Of a stretch of 64,000 nucleotides of DNA, positions 36,321 through 39,580 are shown in pieces. The stretch covers positions 5,146,001-5,210,000 of the forward strand of contig NZ_AP024702.1 of the NCBI RefSeq assembly GCF_037076345.1, read 5' to 3'. Position 1 is the stretch's first letter, and each line of letters starts with the position of its first letter. The position numbers and the translations under genes are program-made. Under the pieces are notes generated by a model. The model was not told the origin of the DNA. It worked only from the letters and a program-made list of their open reading frames with translations, and ran no database searches. This stretch comes from Haloferula helveola. Lineage in GTDB: Bacteria; Verrucomicrobiota; Verrucomicrobiia; Verrucomicrobiales; Akkermansiaceae.

Positions 36321-38102
36321 ATGTTCCGACGATTGTTGCTCGCCGGATTGGCCCTCGGGTCACCGCTGCTCGCCCAGGAGAACCTTTTCATCCAGGCGCC
36401 CCGTCCGACCCATCCGAAGGACAAGACGCGCATCGAGGTCGAGGCGCTCTTCAGTATGGCGCCGCCGACCGGTTACCTGCCGGTGCGGGTCAGCGTCGTC
36501 AACCAGCGGAAAACCAACGGACAGCTCAATTTCGACACCCTGTCGTCGACCGGCTACGACGAGGCAGGAAGCCAGCTCGAGTCCGAGTTCACGGTTGGCA
36601 GTGACGCAGGTACAGCGAGGTCGACCGATCTCCTGATCCCCCTGACGACCGAACTCGACAGCACCGGTGGATACGGATCCACCACGGTCGAGGTCTCGAT
36701 GACGGGATCTTTCGGCGGGAACCGGGGCTCGATCCCATCGAATTTCCATCCGGAGGGTCCGGCGACCCTGATGAGCGAGGTGCTCTACACGCCGAACTCG
36801 TCGGCCCTCGACGCGGCGCTCAACAGCACCAGCGGCGGATACGGCAGCCATTCGTTCGCGGCCCGATTCACACCGTCGAAGATGCCGGAGGACTGGCGGG
36901 CCTACTCCGGCTACGACCTGATGATGCTGACCCCCGACGACTGGCGCAAGATGTCGCCCGGGGCGACCAGTTCGATTCTCCAGTGGATCCGCCTCGGTGG
37001 CCGGATGGTCTTCTATGCGAGCGGCAGCGCGCCGACATTCGGGGCGCTCGGGATCGAGGGGGAAACCAAGGGCAACGATCTGGACTACGGTTTCGGCAAG
37101 GTGTCGATCAGCACCATTTCCGGGCCCACGGCGTTGAACGCGAATGATACCGTCCGACGATTTCATCGGGCGGGCGCGACCAAGATCCGCGGGCTGAACG
37201 AATGCATCAGCGAGGACTTCTCCGTGCGCTGGCCGCTGCATGAGGAGTTCGGCAAACAGACTTTCGATTACGCGATCTTTGTCGTCGTGCTGATCGCCTT
37301 CGGGGTGCTGGTGGGTCCGATCAACCTGTTCGTGTTCGCGAAGTCAGGAAAGCGTCACAAGCTGTTCATCACCACTCCGGTGATTTCCTTGGCAACCAGC
37401 GCGCTGCTGATCGCGCTCATCCTGCTGCGCGACGGTGTCGGCGGGCGTGGCGCCAGAATCGCGCTGATCGAGGTGCGGCCTGAAGCGGGCGAGAACCGGG
37501 CCTACGTCCTGCAGGAGCAGATTTCCCGCACCGGCGTTCTTCTCGGAGGCGGATTCCAAGTGGATGAGGATGTCGCGATCACGCCCGTACCGATCGCCGA
37601 CAGTCCTTGGGCGCGACTCACCCCCCGCACCGGAGGTGGCGGGATGCGCTACACTGCGTCCTTCGGCGATGAAGGCCTCAAGGTCACCGGCGACTGGTTC
37701 CAGAGTCGCTCCGAGCAGGGGCAGCTGGCACGCGCTGTTGTTCCGACCCGCGGGCGGATCGAACTCAAGGGCGAAACGGGGCCGCCGAATTTCGTCTCGA
37801 CCTTCGACTTTCCGATCGAGCGTCTCTACTACGCGGATCGTAGTGGTGGCTGGTGGATGGCCAGTGACCTGAAGGCGGGCAGCCCGACGCAGGGCACCCC
37901 GATCAGCGAGGCCGACTACAATAAGGCAATTGGCGATCAGGGGATGTTGCTCGCGGCACGTCATCGCAGCCAGTTGGACCGCTGTGCCGAGCGTTCCGGC
38001 CACTACGTCGCCATCGCTTCCGAGGCACCGGCGATCGAGACCTTCGATTCGATTCGCTGGTCCGATACCCACACCATTCTCACCGGGCCGGCCGTCCGAT
38101 GA
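36321..38102 (+). CDS. Signal-peptide membrane protein of MoxR operon
   Basis: 593 residues: a signal peptide (MFRRLLLAGLALGSPLLAQ), a large extracytoplasmic domain (about 20-310, beta-rich, with LSTTSS-like repeats of Ser/Thr/Gly) and two transmembrane helices (about 313-336 and 350-368; YAIFVVVLIAFGVLVGPINLFVFA). A second large beta-rich region follows. No named domain was recognised. Its TGA at 38100 lies inside ATGA, and this ATGA is repeated 453 bp further at the start of the ABC ATPase gene. Before an insertion the two genes may have overlapped by 4 bp. Function unknown; context suggests a partner of MoxR and the transporter. Confidence 0.8.
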   Translation: MFRRLLLAGLALGSPLLAQENLFIQAPRPTHPKDKTRIEVEALFSMAPPTGYLPVRVSVVNQRKTNGQLNFDTLSSTGYDEAGSQLESEFTVGSDAGTARSTDLLIPLTTELDSTGGYGSTTVEVSMTGSFGGNRGSIPSNFHPEGPATLMSEVLYTPNSSALDAALNSTSGGYGSHSFAARFTPSKMPEDWRAYSGYDLMMLTPDDWRKMSPGATSSILQWIRLGGRMVFYASGSAPTFGALGIEGETKGNDLDYGFGKVSISTISGPTALNANDTVRRFHRAGATKIRGLNECISEDFSVRWPLHEEFGKQTFDYAIFVVVLIAFGVLVGPINLFVFAKSGKRHKLFITTPVISLATSALLIALILLRDGVGGRGARIALIEVRPEAGENRAYVLQEQISRTGVLLGGGFQVDEDVAITPVPIADSPWARLTPRTGGGGMRYTASFGDEGLKVTGDWFQSRSEQGQLARAVVPTRGRIELKGETGPPNFVSTFDFPIERLYYADRSGGWWMASDLKAGSPTQGTPISEADYNKAIGDQGMLLAARHRSQLDRCAERSGHYVAIASEAPAIETFDSIRWSDTHTILTGPAVR

Positions 38103-38131
38103 AACTTGAAACTCCAAACTCGAAATTCCAA
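38099..38131. repeat. Left arm of imperfect inverted repeat
   Basis: AT-rich, A/C-patterned arm (units of GAAACTT and GAAACTC) that overlaps the stop codon of the upstream gene. It pairs with 38521-38553 at 24 of 33 positions. The right arm reads TTGAGTCTTAAAGTTTAGAG and onwards. In RNA the two arms could form a long stem around the gene, as in intervening sequences of 23S rRNA. Confidence 0.6.
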
Positions 38132-38551
38132 GCACGTGACTTCAGGGCGTCAGATCGAGGCAAAACCCTACGACCTTGAGGAGCGAACCTATCGCTTCGC
38201 TCTGGTCACGCGCCTGTTTCTCAAGAGACAATCGTGGGATCCGGCTTCGTGGCCGGATGTCAGGCAGCTGCTTCGTTCGTCGGGGTCCGTTGCTGCGAAC
38301 TACGTGGAGTTCATTGAAGGGTTGAGCGGGGACGACAAGACCTACCGTCTCCGTATCTCAAAAAAGGAAGCAAGGGAGTCGGGGCTGTGGCTGCGGCTGC
38401 TGTCGGACTGCAACAGCCTGCCGCCAGAGTCGGCGGCGGAGTTGCGCGAGCTGAAACAGGAGTCTGATGAATTGGTCCGCATTCTTGCTGCAATCATTCG
38501 AAAGCGCGTCTCCTGAGTTATTGAGTCTTAAAGTTTAGAGTTTCAGATTTC
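38103..38551 (+). mobile_element. Candidate mobile insert carrying the four-helix-bundle gene
   Basis: This 449-bp stretch lies between two copies of ATGA (38099-38102 and 38552-38555): the first ends one operon gene, the second starts the next. Removing the stretch with one ATGA would leave a 4-bp stop/start overlap like others in this operon. Imperfect inverted repeats flank it (38099-38131 and 38521-38553, 24 of 33 positions matched). It holds only a four-helix-bundle gene, no transposase. Mobility is inferred from the junctions. Confidence 0.5.
38136..38516 (+). CDS. Four-helix-bundle protein (23S rRNA IVP/S23 type)
   Basis: 126 residues from GTG 38136 (a TTG ten codons earlier is possible). 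It is helical, basic, and matches the four-helix-bundle family found in 23S rRNA intervening sequences and, as Avd, in diversity-generating retroelements: YRFALVTRLFLK, SGSVAANYVEFIEG, KTYRLRISKKEARESGLWLRLL, LKQESDELVRILAAI. Its function is unknown in most contexts; Avd binds nucleic acid. It is placed inside a MoxR/ABC operon in the same direction, fits no function of that operon, and is flanked by inverted repeats. No reverse transcriptase or variable repeat is near. Confidence 0.85.
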   Translation: MTSGRQIEAKPYDLEERTYRFALVTRLFLKRQSWDPASWPDVRQLLRSSGSVAANYVEFIEGLSGDDKTYRLRISKKEARESGLWLRLLSDCNSLPPESAAELRELKQESDELVRILAAIIRKRVS

Positions 38552-38553
38552 AT
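38521..38553. repeat. Right arm of imperfect inverted repeat
   Basis: Reverse complement partner of 38099-38131 (24 of 33 positions). It begins 5 bp after the four-helix-bundle stop codon and overlaps the ATG of the ABC ATPase gene. The mismatches are largely transitions, some giving G-U pairs in RNA. Confidence 0.6.
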
Positions 38554-39580
38554 GACCGACTCCACCAGCGCCATCCGCGTCCACAACCTCTACCGCTACT
38601 TCGGGCAACTGAAGGCGGTGAACGGCATCTCTTTCGAGATTCCCCACGGCTCCGTCTGCGGGTTCGTGGGTGCCAACGGTGCCGGAAAGACGACGACCAT
38701 GCGGATTCTCGCATCCCTCGACTACCCGACCATGGGGTTGGCGGAAGTCTGCGGGATCAATGTCGTGCATCATCCGGAAGAAGTTCGGCGGCTGATCGGA
38801 TGGATGCCCGACCACTTCGGCAACTACGAGCACATGACCGTGCTCGAGTATCTCGACTTCTACGCACGTGCCTTCGGTTACTCGGGCAAGGAACGTCGGA
38901 TGAGGGTGCAGGAAGTGATGGAGTTCACCGACCTGATTCCGCTTGCCGAGCGATTCTCGAACAAGCTGTCGAAGGGCATGACACAACGTCTCTGTCTGGG
39001 GCGTGCGCTGCTGCATGATCCGCAAGTGCTGATCATGGATGAGCCTGCGGCGGGGCTCGATCCGAAGGCTCGGGTCGAACTGAAGCACCTCATCCGCGTT
39101 CTCGCGGACGAGGGGAAAACGATCTTCATCTCTTCCCACATCCTCTCCGAGCTCGGCGAGATGTGCGACTCCCTCCTCTTCGTCAACGCGGGTCGGATCG
39201 TCCACCACGGCGACGCCGACTCGCTCAAGCACGGCACCGATATCACCGGTGGGTTGCTCTACGACGTTCAGATCGTCGGTGATCCCGGCAGGGTTTCCGA
39301 GTGGTGCATGGTCAATCCCCATGTCGAGTTCATGGAAAGCCGGAAGCTGGGCGGACGGATCCGGATCGAGGCCGGCGACCCCGAAAAGGCGGCTGACGTG
39401 CTGGCCCGGATGATCCGCGACGGACTCAAGGTCGTCGAGTTCCACCGGGAGCAGCGGAATCTCGAGGATGCGTTCATCGACATGCTCGGCAGGCTCGACC
39501 GCGGCGAGGATGCGCAGCCTCCGGCGATGCCCCAACAGGAAGCCGAACCGGCATTCACTCCGCCAGCAGGCACCAACTGA
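38552..39580 (+). CDS. ABC transporter ATP-binding protein
   Basis: 342-residue ATPase. Walker A VGANGAGKTTTMR, Q-loop MPDHFGNYEHMTVLEYL, signature KLSKGMTQRLCLGRAL (variant of LSGGQ), Walker B VLIMDEPAAGLDPKAR, and the H-loop ISSHILSELG. This is the GldA/CcmA-like class of exporter ATPases with a C-terminal extension (about 240-342) that ends in a Pro/Ala-rich tail. It works with the permease encoded 14 bp downstream. The start ATG lies in the right inverted-repeat arm of the four-helix insert. Substrate not known. Confidence 0.93.
   Translation: MTDSTSAIRVHNLYRYFGQLKAVNGISFEIPHGSVCGFVGANGAGKTTTMRILASLDYPTMGLAEVCGINVVHHPEEVRRLIGWMPDHFGNYEHMTVLEYLDFYARAFGYSGKERRMRVQEVMEFTDLIPLAERFSNKLSKGMTQRLCLGRALLHDPQVLIMDEPAAGLDPKARVELKHLIRVLADEGKTIFISSHILSELGEMCDSLLFVNAGRIVHHGDADSLKHGTDITGGLLYDVQIVGDPGRVSEWCMVNPHVEFMESRKLGGRIRIEAGDPEKAADVLARMIRDGLKVVEFHREQRNLEDAFIDMLGRLDRGEDAQPPAMPQQEAEPAFTPPAGTN

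Follow-up and report, generated by a model that had tools for sequence, protein, structure and literature searches.

A 64,000-nt stretch of the Haloferula helveola genome (contig NZ_AP024702.1, positions 5,146,001 to 5,210,000 of the forward strand; hereafter the window) contains an operon in which two protein-coding genes are separated by a small gene of the IVP family, the four-helix-bundle proteins known from 23S rRNA intervening sequences (IVSs). The gene is enclosed by two inverted arms, each built of five 7-nt units. We found the same inverted-arm layout at IVP loci from many phyla, and in the Xanthomonas family the number of gene-less heptamer arrays in a genome goes with the presence of a close IVP gene. 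We consider it rather probable that the IVP element, as we call the gene with its two arms, is a repeat system similar to that of REPINs, in which the partner of the repeats is a pentameric protein of the Avd fold instead of a transposase. If so, the IVP protein would drive the spread of the arms.

Anatomy of the unit in the window and at other IVP loci

The unit in the window consists of five 7-nt repeats, the IVP gene and five inverted 7-nt repeats, joined without gaps. The left arm (38101–38135, forward strand; 35 nt) reads GAAACTT, GAAACTC, CAAACTC, GAAATTC and CAAGCAC; it begins within the stop codon of the upstream gene and ends at the GTG of the IVP gene (38136–38516, forward strand; 126 aa, GTG to TGA). 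The right arm (38517–38551, reverse strand; 35 nt) occupies the whole gap from the IVP stop codon to the next ATG and, read inward, is made of the units GAAATCT, GAAACTC, TAAACTT, TAAGACT and CAATAAC. The GTG start was chosen by comparison with likely starts in the related genomes G013 and G017. Scored on the open reading frame (ORF) taken from 38106, the gene matched both PF05635 (36.5 bits, cut-off 33.8) and TIGR02436 (53.2 bits, cut-off 24), which bears out the family that a first-pass annotation of this DNA had assigned to it. That annotation had also reported imperfect inverted repeats, paired at 24 of 33 positions, on either side of the gene. Our hand count gave the same pairing (24/33), and the best local block of the arms (19/22) scored 29, against at most 24 for 20,000 pairs placed at random in the window with equal spacing. 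The lag-7 identity of the left arm (0.71) is the highest of all 35-mers in the 64-kb window, and the right arm is less regular (0.55 at lag 7, 0.53 at lag 8). The RNA stem that had been proposed around the gene agrees with a predicted fold in which the arms are paired (−182.7 kcal/mol, z −2.5; 1 of 100 shuffles was equally low). As had likewise been noted, the unit holds no transposase by ORF list and profile search, the IVP ORF being the sole ORF inside it.

The upstream gene of the operon (36321–38102, forward strand; 593 aa) has no Pfam or NCBIfam match at E 0.01. Its coding sequence ends in CGA TGA, and the stop codon TGA overlaps the first heptamer of the left arm. On the other side, the ATG of an ABC transporter ATPase gene (38552–39580, forward strand) stands immediately 3' of the right arm. 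The unit lies outside any 23S rRNA gene. Three IVP genes are present in the window genome. Every one of them has inverted arms of its own, with the units GAAACTC at the window gene, GGAATATCCAATATCC at L002 and GGCCAGTGGTCGGTGG at L001.

The inverted-arm layout is general at the IVP loci examined and not local to the window. Our related set comprised 57 genomes, the window genome (G000) and its relatives, which we take to be Verrucomicrobia; 43 of them carry IVP genes among the matches listed, and some partial or contig-end matches were left out of the locus set. The arm test, which used 133 of the 134 related-set loci, gave a median pairing score of 38, compared with 16 for arms paired across genomes, and 114 loci lay above the 95% null and 84 above the 99% null. 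A search with the X. campestris protein supplied 79 further loci from many phyla (79 of 80 used; L288 lies near a contig end), for which the median was 35 against 17, with 56 and 33 loci above the same two limits. Among ten cyanobacterial plasmid loci (nine distinct, because L250 and L251 are near copies), seven scored at least 38, and L247 and L249 scored about 30. Inverted arms with a score of at least 24 are present at 192 of 221 IVP loci, in 6% of 798 random placements and at none of 27 ABC ATPase control loci; of 124 independent IVP sites, 111 have at least one member with arms at score 24. Other copies of the gene had been expected to share the GAAACTT-type flanks of the window, and flanking inverted repeats are indeed found at most of them, whereas the GAAACTT-type sequence itself is not general.

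The layout varies in detail at some loci. At L253, in Pseudanabaena galeata, an IVP gene between cas6 and cas4 has inverted arms (1281–1315 and 1895–1929) and an extra long inner AAAAGCT array (about 1364–1473), which lies between the left arm and the gene and is oriented like the right-hand array. At L155, L159, L161 and L163 the IVP frames are longer (187–198 aa), and the arms are shorter or differently built (AAATCTC/ATTTCAG).

The 7-nt period was analyzed in 222 loci (L288 and L251 excluded), 221 of which entered the arm-score count. Identity in the left arms was 0.64 at lag 7, 0.61 at lag 14 and 0.57 at lag 21, with values of 0.25–0.34 at other lags; lag 7 was the best of lags 3–12 in 139 of 160 arms, and the DNA 100 nt upstream of the left arms has only the codon period. 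Units were counted where the array threshold was passed, that is, at 98 (left) and 100 (right) of 127 sites. The median was 5.1 units per left arm and 4.9 per right arm, and five was the commonest number (30/98 left, 31/100 right), with four nearly as common (23 and 29). Dispersed arrays prefer four units according to Rehm et al. (PMC4692102). The sequence of the unit varies between IVP lineages, and the 7-nt period stays.

The two arms of a site co-evolve, as tested in 281 orthologous site pairs irrespective of their arm score: a site's own left and right arms matched with a score of 42.0, against 26.9 for arms combined across species; the own arms matched better in 235 pairs, with 15 ties, and in 20 of 24 site clusters. 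The same test on loci preselected by arm score gave 43.8 against 28.1, and 17 of 19 clusters. Between different sites, arm similarity rises with the relatedness of the IVP proteins when arms are compared in the same orientation (Mantel r 0.18; the largest of 500 permutations was 0.09), and in the reverse orientation r was −0.16. This cross-site correlation is the weaker evidence because arm base composition contributes to it.

The placement of the genes was assessed with neighbor calls that came, in place of annotation, from a gene finder that had learned codon usage from the window. Both neighbors are co-directional with the IVP gene at 97 of 114 related-set loci, and at 95 of the 103 loci with a co-directional upstream gene the upstream stop codon falls between 15 nt inside the left arm, which was the limit of the stop-codon search, and 22 nt before it. 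Counted by independent sites, both neighbors are co-directional at 52 of 70 and both opposed at 4 (52 vs 4, p = 1e-11), the rest being mixed or unclear.

Gene-less arrays and their association with the IVP gene

Dispersed GGGAATC heptamers are known from Xanthomonas genomes, and 70 inverted pairs of them have been described in Xcc (PMC4692102). From this published heptamer we predicted beforehand the arm unit of the Xanthomonas IVP genes, and the arms proved to be GGGAATC in all five of the species fetched, so that the dispersed heptamer and the arm unit of the gene are identical. In genera related to Xanthomonas the IVP arms are GGGAATC or GGGATTC. A search for three GGGAATC units with up to two mismatches returned 327 matches in X. 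arboricola (G057), 36 in the genome of L265, 18 in that of L261 and 0–1 in six others. We then surveyed 119 genomes of the Xanthomonas family, with a close IVP defined by E up to 1e-28. The median number of matches to the array pattern was 367.5 in the 32 genomes with a close IVP, 4.5 in the 22 with only a distant one and 1 in the 65 with none; at least 30 matches were present in 31 of the 32 close-IVP genomes versus 13 of the 87 others (Fisher p = 4e-17).

Gene-less arms are also dispersed in the genus of the window. The sequence AACTTGGAACTTGGAACTT, searched with up to two mismatches and counted as overlapping matches, gave 71 matches in G017 and 0 control matches, and it is present in 15 of 18 genus genomes. 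In 37 stretches of G017 and 3 of G000, gene-less arms stand singly or as inward pairs, and several of them start within a stop codon (L225, L226 and L227). In X. arboricola, 20 stretches, four of which were chosen because a pair was listed there, have GGGAATC arms, often as inward pairs with the inner box G[C/T]AARAGC, and a similar box also follows the arms of IVP genes. By a simple pattern rule, the 60 stretches of G017/G000 and X. arboricola hold 20 inward and 2 outward gene-less pairs. The loops of the pairs are unrelated apart from short stretches.

One G017 gene-less array is in frame in a loop of leuS; 11 of 17 genomes have this loop unaltered, and five have other repeats in it. Across the 17 genus genomes (L346–L362), the loop holds SAANNTC heptamers in G017, CAATCGG heptamers in G010, and other palindromes in G011, G013, G014 and G016. 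The old sequence was replaced there, with different repeats by species, and the loop tolerates insertions from several repeat families.

These populations resemble the REPIN/RAYT system, in which repeat pairs and singlets accompany a vertically kept gene and are more numerous where the gene is present (PMC3116915, PMC8049555). Dispersed inverted pairs with unrelated loops, singlets, and a repeat number that goes with the partner gene are common to both. Unlike in REPIN/RAYT, the partner here is the all-helical, Avd-fold IVP and not a Y1/HUH transposase, the arms are heptamer arrays, and genomes of the related set commonly have several IVP genes among the matches listed. The arms also resemble the dispersed heptamers described in bacteria, such as GGGAATC in Xanthomonas, GGGGA(C/T)T in Nostoc, TAACTGA in Beggiatoaceae and the cyanobacterial STRR (PMC4692102 and PMC4679880 among the sources), in their unit length and short arrays and, in Xanthomonas, in the inverted pairs. 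The arms of cyanobacterial plasmid IVPs are G-rich and related to such heptamers. In the accessible portions of PMC4692102 and PMC4679880, a term search found no IVP gene named.

Presence and absence of the unit at orthologous sites

Eighteen genomes of the genus were searched, and the ABC ATPase was found in 17. The IVP gene stands at the window site in three of these (G000, G013 and G017). Four others (G006, G008, G009 and G012) have a clean ATGA overlap and no IVP gene, four (G002, G005, G007 and G011) have gene-less heptamer arrays directly before the ABC ATPase ATG, and the remaining six have other spacers. In a FastTree phylogeny of the ABC ATPase with 1.5 kb downstream, the three carriers form one clade (support 0.99) and their sister genome G014 has an empty site; the simplest history is therefore a single gain of the gene before the three split. 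The units follow SAANNTC in all three carriers, and a swapped arm orientation that we had considered for G017 was gone once the units were placed in register.

Several further features of this junction were observed. In G017, the right arm and the start of the ABC ATPase are apparently tandem-duplicated (L036, 1311–1490). Other small palindromic repeats occur at the same junction in G007 (L040; for example GCCGGCTTCAGCCGGC) and G003 (L049), so the spot gathers several kinds of small element. In a distant relative (G051, L088), an IVP gene immediately follows the orthologous ABC ATPase on its downstream side and perhaps represents an independent insertion into the same operon.

We also compared four cyanobacterial plasmid sites, three of which have a clean empty partner. 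Between an integrase gene and a hypothetical gene, the whole unit is present in Calothrix, and N. carneum, Tolypothrix and Aulosira have a stop codon, three bases and a start codon. At a site between a TraM-like gene and a hypothetical gene, the unit is present in Nostoc C052 and N. edaphicum and absent from two C057 plasmids, and in ATCC 53789 the arms are present and the gene is absent. At the ribonucleotide reductase genes, N. edaphicum carries the unit in antisense and Calothrix 4105 has none. The fourth site, between cas6 and cas4, is filled in Anabaena sp. 90 and offers no clean empty partner because Dolichospermum, whose flanks are 99.3% identical, holds a different palindromic repeat. 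At the three clean sites the junctions lie at the outermost heptamers or at most about 10 nt from them, and the filled sites lack roughly 11 to 42 nt of the spacer seen in the empty ones, numbers that depend on the alignment. The left junction of the TraM site was read by eye, the automatic alignment having misplaced it. There is no consistent target-site duplication at the plasmid sites, with a possible TTAG at one. In this respect, and in having no transposase gene in the unit, the element differs from an insertion sequence or a miniature inverted-repeat transposable element. A separate observation concerns Anabaena sp. 90 (L246, 1881–1950): there, in-frame translation of the right arm contributes residues close to the N-terminus of the annotated Cas4.

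The first-pass annotation had suggested for the window unit a small mobile element that lands between co-transcribed genes, and gain and loss at such places agree with its presence in 3 of 17 genus genomes and with the filled and empty plasmid sites. It had further proposed that insertion duplicated an ATGA, so that removal of 453 bp would restore an old stop/start overlap. The sequence itself is as claimed, with ATGA at 38099 and at 38552, 453 bp apart, and the first copy (38099–38102, forward strand) is the end of the Arg codon CGA together with the stop codon TGA. The gene-less sites with a clean ATGA overlap that this proposal called for do exist, in G006, G008, G009 and G012. However, these four genomes belong to another clade than the carriers, the sister genome G014 is empty without an ATGA, as is G001, in neither of the closest carriers, G013 and G017, does ATGA occur as a pair, and the plasmid sites show no consistent duplication. 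We therefore hardly credit a unit that duplicates ATGA on insertion. The idea of an insertable unit was largely right, and the ATGA at 38099 is unsupported as a target duplication.

The IVP protein and the origin of the repeats

The structural model of the window protein has four helices (mean pLDDT 73). Its best fold matches are the IVP-family structures 2rld (E 2e-5) and 2gsc (E 2.5e-3), with TM of 0.69–0.73 by query length; both of these solved relatives have five chains, and the structures of the family were released in 2006 and 2007. The X. campestris IVP protein is described as a homopentamer in PMC4990558, where the function of IVP-family proteins is said to be unknown. Avd, which has a similar fold, appears from rank 16, both alone and in the ribonucleoprotein of a diversity-generating retroelement (4dwl, 8ub7), with TM of 0.57–0.68 by query length and behind some helical inhibitors of lower TM. 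A resemblance of PF05635 to Avd has been reported (PMC10053308). Over 35 IVP sequences, the invariant residues are all polar (Y19, Q44, R47, S51, N55, E58 and E81). The window protein compared with that of G013 gives pS 0.77 and pN 0.16, and the median dN/dS of IVP is 0.11 (27 of 54 pairs, the unsaturated ones). The IVP protein is under purifying selection.

In the mechanism that we propose, the paired arms on either side of the IVP gene, each of about five tandem 7-nt units, would form a hairpin, either as RNA or as single-stranded DNA. An IVP pentamer would bind an arm with one protomer per heptamer, as suggested by the match between about five units per arm and five chains. With IVP bound, replication or repair by the host would copy the hairpin into new sites or maintain it there. 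The IVP gene would be read from the transcript of the operon, and the gap after a stop codon would be the spot where insertion harms least. The outcome would be a vertically kept IVP gene with a population of gene-less hairpins, much as RAYT is accompanied by REPINs, with IVP unrelated to RAYT.

In a different arrangement, IVP would be an accessory, and the copying would be done in trans by a reverse transcriptase, as with Avd in diversity-generating retroelements, or by a Y1/RAYT transposase. The fold match to Avd (4dwl, 8ub7) would suit the former, and, among the matches listed for the related set, both domains are found in a larger share of the 43 IVP-bearing genomes than of the 14 without IVP (RVT_1 in 24 versus 4, Y1 in 42 versus 9). 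However, Pfam searches, which leave other enzymes outside their range and were made on assemblies that may be incomplete, found no RVT_1 in 19 of the 43 IVP-bearing genomes, including G013, which has 14 IVP matches among those listed, and no Y1 in 9 of the 32 close-IVP genomes of the Xanthomonas family, which nevertheless have 36–716 array matches. By these Pfam searches, neither a reverse transcriptase nor a Y1 transposase is a required partner in trans, and we regard copying by either enzyme as improbable. The two RVT_1 matches of the window genome lie at 0.98 and 1.29 Mb, and the window at 5.15–5.21 Mb; unlike in a diversity-generating retroelement, no reverse transcriptase adjoins the window IVP gene. 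A role as an anti-phage defence component was also considered and rejected, there being no PADLOC match.

Two further explanations dispense with a mobilizing role of the protein. IVP could be a domesticated RNA- or DNA-binding protein of the host, with the arrays as its regulon at operon junctions, its own arms serving autoregulation, and mobility being incidental. Such a regulator would fit IVP sites that are conserved between species and genera, a dN/dS of about 0.1 and arms directly after stop codons in operons. It fits poorly with arrays within coding sequence (the leuS loop of G017), with arrays at the window site that differ between species, and with plasmid sites that hold the full unit in one plasmid and not in a related one, and we consider it unlikely. 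Less likely still is a spread of the hairpins by replication slippage and template switching alone, with IVP genes merely often caught between the arms. In its favor, the unit changes gradually from one end of an array to the other, the number of units differs between arrays, the G017 leuS array begins in a stretch that to our reading resembles the unit, and the plasmid sites have no canonical junctions. Yet it leaves unexplained both the arms at 111 of 124 independent IVP sites and the association between array number and the IVP gene. The fewest assumptions are needed if IVP itself is the arm-binding protein that maintains or spreads the hairpins.

Several points weigh against a protein that moves its own arms. 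Movement and arm binding by IVP are deduced from the comparison of sequences. The arms fall below the score threshold at 29 of 221 IVP loci, the own arms match no better than cross-species arms in 4 of 24 site clusters, and the correlation between protein and arm similarity across sites is weak (r 0.18) and partly reflects arm base composition. In the Xanthomonas family survey, array counts are overlapping pattern matches and not distinct arrays, and kinship is ignored; moreover, 9 of the 65 genomes without an IVP match still have 39–178 array matches, 4 of the 22 with only a distant IVP have 30–725, and one close-IVP genome (G104) has just 5. Arrays without a close IVP might stem from recent loss of the gene, missed genes, related IVP types or another partner. 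Some cyanobacterial plasmid copies are antisense to their neighbors (L247, L254 and L255), and many IVP genes are found at one and the same site in different species or genera, so the full unit can move only rarely. By E-value (0.03–0.09) Avd is a weak fold match, and the IVP protein has no catalytic motif known to us.

The closest described relatives of the element are the 23S rRNA IVSs of Coxiella, Leptospira and others, which likewise have an IVP ORF between complementary, stem-forming ends. The Coxiella IVS contains tandem GACAGAT heptamers, two or three by strain, before its ORF (PMC4990558), and the idea that rRNA IVSs are mobile is older (Ralph and McClelland 1993, cited in PMC4990558). 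Unlike these IVSs, the window unit lies between protein genes of an operon and both of its arms are five-heptamer arrays; further differences are the purifying selection on the protein and the gene-less arms dispersed in related genomes. In the portions of the open-access PMC literature covered by our search, we found no link between IVP genes and heptamer repeats beyond the Coxiella IVS itself.

Overall, these results tie together a protein family with no known function and the unexplained dispersed 7-base repeats, and they predict a binding unit of 7 nt and an oligomer of five. As a more tentative and wider proposal, which could well claim too much, IVP may be the missing cause of prokaryotic tandem heptamers, a pentameric ring that takes 7 nt per protomer and copies or maintains five-heptamer hairpins; this would make it the center of an overlooked class of transposase-less mobile DNA to which the rRNA IVSs also belong. 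If IVP does spread the arms, the IVP element would be a mobile element system without a known transposase, with loci in many phyla.

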